From: Thiobacillus sp.
Lineage (GTDB): Bacteria > Pseudomonadota > Gammaproteobacteria > Burkholderiales > Thiobacillaceae
Direction: 5' to 3'
Length of the DNA stretch: 35,937 bases
Assembly (NCBI GenBank): GCA_019911765.1
Contig: JAIOJU010000061.1
Span: forward strand, 1 to 35,937
How positions within the stretch are numbered: position 1 is the stretch's first letter; each line of letters begins with the position of its first letter. A program made the position numbers and the translations under genes. The notes beneath the pieces are model-generated. The model was not told where the DNA came from, did not search any database, and saw only the letters and a program-made list of their open reading frames with translations. Below, in pieces: positions 235 to 751 of the stretch.

Positions 235-510
235 GTGGTCACATTCCACCTCAAAATCCAGGGTCGCGTGCAGGGCGTGTGGTTTCGTGAATCCATGCGC
301 CGTGAAGCCGAACGCCTGGGGGTCAACGGCTGGGTCTGCAATCGGTCGGATGGTTCAGTGGAGGCCACGGTTCAGGGGGCAACTGATGCAGTCAACGCCT
401 TGATCGAATGGGCTCACTCGGGCCCACCGCTGGCGCAGGTACAGCAGGTTGTCCAGACAGCCATCGTGACGCAAGACCTGTTCAGCACATTCGAGAAACG
501 GGCGGCATAA
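235..510 (+). CDS. acyP: Acylphosphatase
   Basis: 91 aa, GTG start; [42 protein letters not shown] acylphosphatase signature. Confidence 0.93.
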
Positions 511-550: not shown

Positions 551-580
551 AAAAAAAGCCCGACTCGTTTGAGTCGGGCT
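551..580 (-). terminator. Rho-independent terminator (minus strand)
   Basis: Perfect 10-bp stem AGCCCGACTC/GAGTCGGGCT, 4-nt loop, followed by T-run on minus strand. Confidence 0.9.
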
Positions 581-650
581 GAATATCCACCAAAGGAGGA
601 GGATTGGAGGAGACAACACCTATGTGCCATTGCGGCCACATCAGCGTTAT
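551..650 (-). ncRNA. Candidate small RNA with anti-Shine-Dalgarno C/U-rich region and rho-independent terminator
   Basis: Minus strand: 5' hairpin (622-641), unpaired TTGTCTCCTCCAATCCTCCTCCTTTGGTGG, then AGCCCGACTC-AAAC-GAGTCGGGCT + T7; TTGACA-like box at 684-679. No ORF. Resembles (from memory) the betaproteobacterial toxic small RNA family; boundaries approximate. Confidence 0.6.
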
Positions 651-751
651 AAGAATCTTCTAATATTACGTTATGCCTGTCAACAAGTTTTTAACAAAAA
701 AGCCTGAATTGGTACGATTATTCCAACGCCTCAATTGCCTAAACGCCACAC

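Follow-up and report, generated by a model that had tools for sequence, protein, structure and literature searches.

The window analysed here, a 35,937-nucleotide stretch of Thiobacillus sp. DNA (contig JAIOJU010000061.1), carries a small RNA (sRNA) locus on the minus strand between dnaE and acyP. An earlier note, made from the sequence of this DNA, had placed a promoter box, a hairpin, a C/U-rich run and a terminator there, and on re-reading positions 690-545 we found all of these elements present. The features of the locus, some of them with shifted boundaries, are as follows:

4189-752, minus strand: dnaE, the same-strand neighbour upstream of the sRNA
683-678, minus strand: -35 box TTGACA, read from the sequence and near-invariant across 49 Thiobacillus loci
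665-648, minus strand: candidate operator palindrome TATTAGA-AGAT-TCTTATA, covering the -10 box (consensus TATTAGA-N4-TCTAATA, one mismatch here)
660-655, minus strand: -10 box GAAGAT, with GANNAT as the family form and a spacing of 17 nt to the -35 box, from compared loci
648-550, minus strand: predicted primary transcript of about 99 nt with a start near 648, from the -10 position and the covarying 5' hairpin
648-615, minus strand: 5' hairpin AACGCUG...GCCGCAAUGGC...GGUGUU, from folding, with 6 of 12 pairs changed on both sides
615-550, minus strand: match to Rfam family RF02278 (cmscan) and likely processed short form of 66 nt (compare the 67-nt S17S, PMC11722255)
615-605, minus strand: site 1, UGUCUCCUCCA, an unpaired segment complementary to ribosome-binding sites (anti-RBS), from folding and alignment
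604-585, minus strand: hairpin 1, exposing UCCUUU in the fold AUCC-U-CC(UCCUUU)GG-U-GGAU, from folding and Rfam
602-592, minus strand: site 2, CCUCCUCCUUU, within hairpin 1 and including an 8-nt anti-Shine-Dalgarno match at 599-592
580-550, minus strand: intrinsic terminator, a 10-bp stem (580-557) with 4 pairs changed on both sides, and a T run to 550
235-510, plus strand: acyP (acylphosphatase), the convergent neighbour of the sRNA

The earlier note had named a "betaproteobacterial toxic small RNA" family and proposed an Rfam scan. The family named was the right one: cmscan of the whole window places RF02278 (Betaproteobacteria_toxic_sRNA) at 615-550 on the minus strand over the full model (positions 1-64 of 64), with 62.5 bits and E = 1.9e-10, which exceeds the gathering cut-off of 50 bits by 12.5 bits. 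The architecture of the family is found here as two hairpins, the second of them an intrinsic terminator, together with a CU-rich unpaired segment. We regard it as nearly certain that the window sRNA is a new member of RF02278. The same scan returned one other family, the cspA thermoregulator (RF01766, 6240-6720 on the plus strand, 94 bits). "Toxic" in the family name denotes a cloning phenotype in Escherichia coli (PMC11722255), and so toxicity of the window copy is not to be assumed; growth inhibition on cloning in E. coli is reported for other RF02278 members only.

RF02278 is single-copy in the genome of the window, and a search for it gave no match in 14 control genomes. Among 101 genomes in the search of relatives, 81 carry the family, namely 52 of the 57 from Thiobacillus and 29 from other genera. 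It is rarer in a broader sample of the class, where most matches fall below the cut-off and 3 of 369 genomes, including that of the window, lie above it. The 3' end of dnaE lies directly upstream of the sRNA in 85 of 105 fetched loci and acyP lies near it in 60 of the 105, duplicates included in both counts. Additional copies were seen in G055 and G067. In G055 (L030 / L062 / L093) the main copy is followed, at a distance of about 250 nt, by a diverged tandem copy resembling RF02278, in which TTGACA is retained and the palindrome degraded. G067, an order-level relative (L068, L069, L336-L340), has nine copies, and three of these are clustered within about 4 kb.

The TTGACA box reported in the earlier note is present, one base lower than the 684-679 given for it. 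The note had also called the -10 box unclear, and from a single sequence it is, because GANNAT is buried in the conserved palindrome; comparison of 49 Thiobacillus promoters identifies it as GAAGAT at 660-655. The spacing from TTGACA to GANNAT is 17 nt in the loci inspected, other genera of the family included. A sigma-70 scan listed no promoter for the sRNA because GANNAT fails the -10 rule of that scan. We infer from these comparisons a promoter of the form TTGACA-N17-GANNAT with a predicted start near 648, a position that follows from the -10 box and from the covarying 5' hairpin, necessarily a part of the RNA.

The hairpin described earlier at 641-622 exists and is only the tip of a longer one (648-615), the last stem base of which is where the Rfam RF02278 model starts. 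The C/U-rich run, which had been described as unpaired, is free at 615-605, and its remainder (604-585) is able to form hairpin 1. The perfect terminator hairpin with its T run was located at 580-557 with the run ending at 550, and the anti-Shine-Dalgarno match CCTCCTTT at 599-592 was confirmed. The folding z-score of the 66-nt form was -6.0, and a 111-nt form gave -5.0. An alignment downstream of dnaE across genomes, which the note had proposed as a check, showed the 49 Thiobacillus loci to be conserved from TTGACA through the T run and unconserved in the intergenic flanks on either side. In 48 distinct Thiobacillus sequences UGUCUCCUCCAAUCC is nearly invariant, a conservation that is partly built in because the 49 loci were chosen by similarity to the CU segment and thus partly by this seed; conservation of the promoter and the leader is independent of that choice.

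Across the whole structure, 11 of 27 pairs are changed on both sides, compared with 4.7 +/- 1.3 in shuffled controls (0 of 500 reach 11), while slid controls reach no more than 6. Most hairpin 1 pairs never vary among the loci, so it is the terminator and the 5' hairpin that supply this support. The Rfam-type pairing UCCA/UGGA and the pairing AUCC/GGAU both fit hairpin 1, and near-invariant pairs do not discriminate between them. Comparison shows promoter, hairpins and terminator as one conserved block, which is predicted to yield a primary RNA that is folded and about 99 nt long. That the leader instead codes for a small protein extending into the CU segment is very improbable: a frame opens at 641 in the window (ATG 641-639), as S17L has a putative 32-residue frame (PMC11722255), but most copies in Thiobacillus lack this ATG, and what varies in the region is its length and its compensated base pairs, not its codons.

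The suggestion in the earlier note that the RNA mimics the anti-Shine-Dalgarno sequence agrees with what has been published on other RF02278 members (PMC5688073, PMC11722255). In Burkholderia cenocepacia, ncS27 and its homologues are short RNAs with two hairpins and with CU-rich runs predicted to cover ribosome-binding sites (RBSs), with 55-80% of their predicted interactions around gene starts; overexpression of ncS27 slows growth and its silencing speeds growth (PMC5688073). In Bordetella pertussis, S17L is converted to the 67-nt S17S by RNase E-dependent processing, and S17S directly represses BP2158 (PMC11722255). Because the window sRNA has the same anatomy as ncS27 and S17S, RBS masking would, by inference, be its best-supported action. 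In a simple complement search of its own genome, the complement of site 1 has 26 matches (5 for the reversed control) and that of site 2 has 22 (45 for the reversed control), with about one-third of the matches just upstream of possible starts. This signal is too weak to name targets.

Like ncS03, ncS05, ncS27 and ncS62 of B. cenocepacia, the window copy combines RF02278 membership with a CU-rich anti-RBS segment, a hairpin and a terminator, and, like ncS27 (92 nt, processed), it is predicted to have a longer primary form that extends further at the 5' end. It differs from the B. cenocepacia members in being single-copy, in having a 5' leader that is a conserved, covarying hairpin and in a promoter that bears the TATTAGA-N4-TCTAATA palindrome. 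The predicted 66-nt form resembles S17S in length, in its putative RBS-pairing sites and in its likely origin by processing, whereas S17L is about 190 nt with the leader in the window about 33 nt, and the S17L level is enhanced by BvgA~P and Hfq where an ArsR repressor is predicted here (PMC11722255).

The palindrome recurs at other genes too. In 49 Thiobacillus sRNA promoters it matches at 14 of 14 positions in 36 and at 12 or more in 48, and it covers the -10 box in 48. A search of 57 genomes at up to one mismatch found 110 sites, and the reversed pattern gave 0. Sites away from the sRNA, in the sample fetched, lie mostly 15-70 bp upstream of protein genes, among them genes for rhodanese, DUF302, 1-Cys peroxiredoxin, flavohaemoglobin and RND membrane-fusion proteins and for a small secreted protein without a Pfam match. 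The genome of the window has two palindromes, one in the sRNA promoter and the other preceding an RND membrane-fusion gene. Many Thiobacillus genomes (L173, L174, L176, L182, L186, L187-L189) have a palindrome-driven rhodanese gene with a DmsC/SoeC-like membrane-protein gene upstream and a DsrE-like gene downstream, the neighbours being named by resemblance only.

There are two alternative readings of the palindrome in which it is something other than an ArsR operator. It may be no more than promoter sequence, the RNA being an ordinary RF02278 member that masks RBSs and is induced by growth arrest or nutrients without any sulfur control. Members of the family do respond to biofilm, starvation and glucose (PMC5688073), and a palindrome overlapping the -10 box and start region would be constrained anyway, but the palindrome also precedes protein genes that have no sRNA, and sRNA promoters lack it in genomes without ArsR. 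We consider this reading unlikely, although it is the strongest of the alternatives.

Proximity points to an ArsR-family protein. In many Thiobacillus genomes, the RND membrane-fusion gene follows arsR with the palindrome between them; the same order occurs in G057, G059, G060 and G088 and, with three mismatches in the palindrome, in G095, and a weaker palindrome lies upstream of arsR in G074, G088 and G093. Some palindromes adjoin Rrf2-family genes instead, so that the site could belong to an NsrR-like sensor of nitric oxide or iron-sulfur status, with the sRNA answering nitrosative stress in these denitrifiers. Palindromes do lie between the genes for an Rrf2 protein and flavohaemoglobin, and two genomes have one next to an Rrf2 gene and a gene resembling multicopper nitrite reductase. 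Adjacency to Rrf2 is nevertheless confined to few genomes while adjacency to ArsR extends over several genera, and the two Rrf2-adjacent efflux loci still have arsR about 9 kb away; we rate this second reading as less probable again than the first.

An ArsR match is present in 55 of 57 Thiobacillus genomes, nearly always at 90-100% identity; in the genome of the window the gene ends at the contig end, giving residues 1-102 only, with the position of Cys105 beyond. Its nearest solved chain is BigR (3pqj, 2.5e-17), followed by HlyU, YgaV and the 6o8l series (SqrR). Cys39 and Cys105 are kept in 30 of 30 Thiobacillus homologues examined, with a spacing of 66, as for Cys50/Cys116 of SoxR (PMC10451225). 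The Thiobacillus ArsR is thus a sequence relative of BigR, SqrR, YgaV and SoxR with both cysteines equally spaced, and this pair, with the homology, suggests a persulfide sensor. As with those regulators, the candidate operator lies over a promoter; YgaV binds over its own (PMC9774250). Written as ATTA-N8-TAAT, the palindrome is spaced like the SqrR site, which PMC9774250 gives as ATTC-N8-GAAT, with ATTA rather than ATTC as the half-site. Unlike those of the named regulators, the proposed Thiobacillus ArsR regulon includes an sRNA.

Co-occurrence outside the genus points the same way. Among 28 sRNA-bearing non-Thiobacillus genomes, the palindrome (score of at least 11/14, null probability 0.005 per locus) is found at the sRNA in 10 of 16 with ArsR and in 0 of 12 without; the Fisher p-value of 6e-4 (0.007 without Thiobacillaceae) is indicative only, because the genomes are phylogenetically related. 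The palindrome is missing at the sRNA in six genomes whose ArsR relative has 63-84% identity. Taking proximity and co-occurrence together, we think it likely that the palindrome is the operator of a BigR/SqrR-type ArsR. Control of the sRNA by persulfides has about even odds.

We propose the following course of events. ArsR bound to the operator over the -10 box would keep the sRNA off at rest, as its co-occurrence with the palindrome suggests. When persulfides or polysulfides accumulate, the sRNA would be released along with the rhodanese, DUF302, peroxiredoxin and efflux genes that bear the palindrome. The primary RNA of about 99 nt (648-550) would consist of the 5' hairpin, the CU-rich segment, hairpin 1 and the intrinsic terminator, and cleavage near 615, by analogy with characterised relatives, would leave the short form of about 66 nt. 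Its UCUCCUCC and CCUCCUCCUUU would pair with the purine-rich RBSs of many mRNAs and block their translation, with Hfq probably aiding the pairing, by the same analogy. For this combined statement, in which the sRNA masks RBSs, is kept repressed by an ArsR of the BigR/SqrR type and is freed by reactive sulfur, we estimate a probability of about 0.6.

Other regulators may control the RNA elsewhere in the family. The motif TGCRNTGCA, which forms the core of the PhaR consensus TGCRNYGCASMA given in PMC6201568, often lies upstream of palindrome-free RF02278 loci at a distance of 72-112 nt. It occurs in 10 of 26 such loci against 0.07 expected from shuffles (maximum 2), namely L324 (G087), L325 (G092), L329 (G090), L330 (G091), L010 (G062), L006 (G070), L026 (G099), L007 (G063) and L337 and L339 (G067). 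PhaR, a polyhydroxybutyrate-linked regulator, may thus control RF02278 sRNAs in other families.

The RNA itself is ordinary for RF02278; the novelty lies in the proposal for its control. Promoter sequences in B. cenocepacia remain largely uncharacterised (PMC5688073), and the defined promoter, operator and repressor candidate described here make the question of how RF02278 RNAs are switched directly testable. It is an evenly balanced proposition that in Thiobacillus and several other betaproteobacteria the sRNA belongs to a persulfide-responsive ArsR regulon and resets translation, and that elsewhere it is wired to other sensors, as the PhaR-like box would indicate, making it a portable output module. 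We found no post-transcriptional arm of the reactive-sulfur response of sulfur oxidisers in the cited literature; if the proposal is true, these organisms would gain one.
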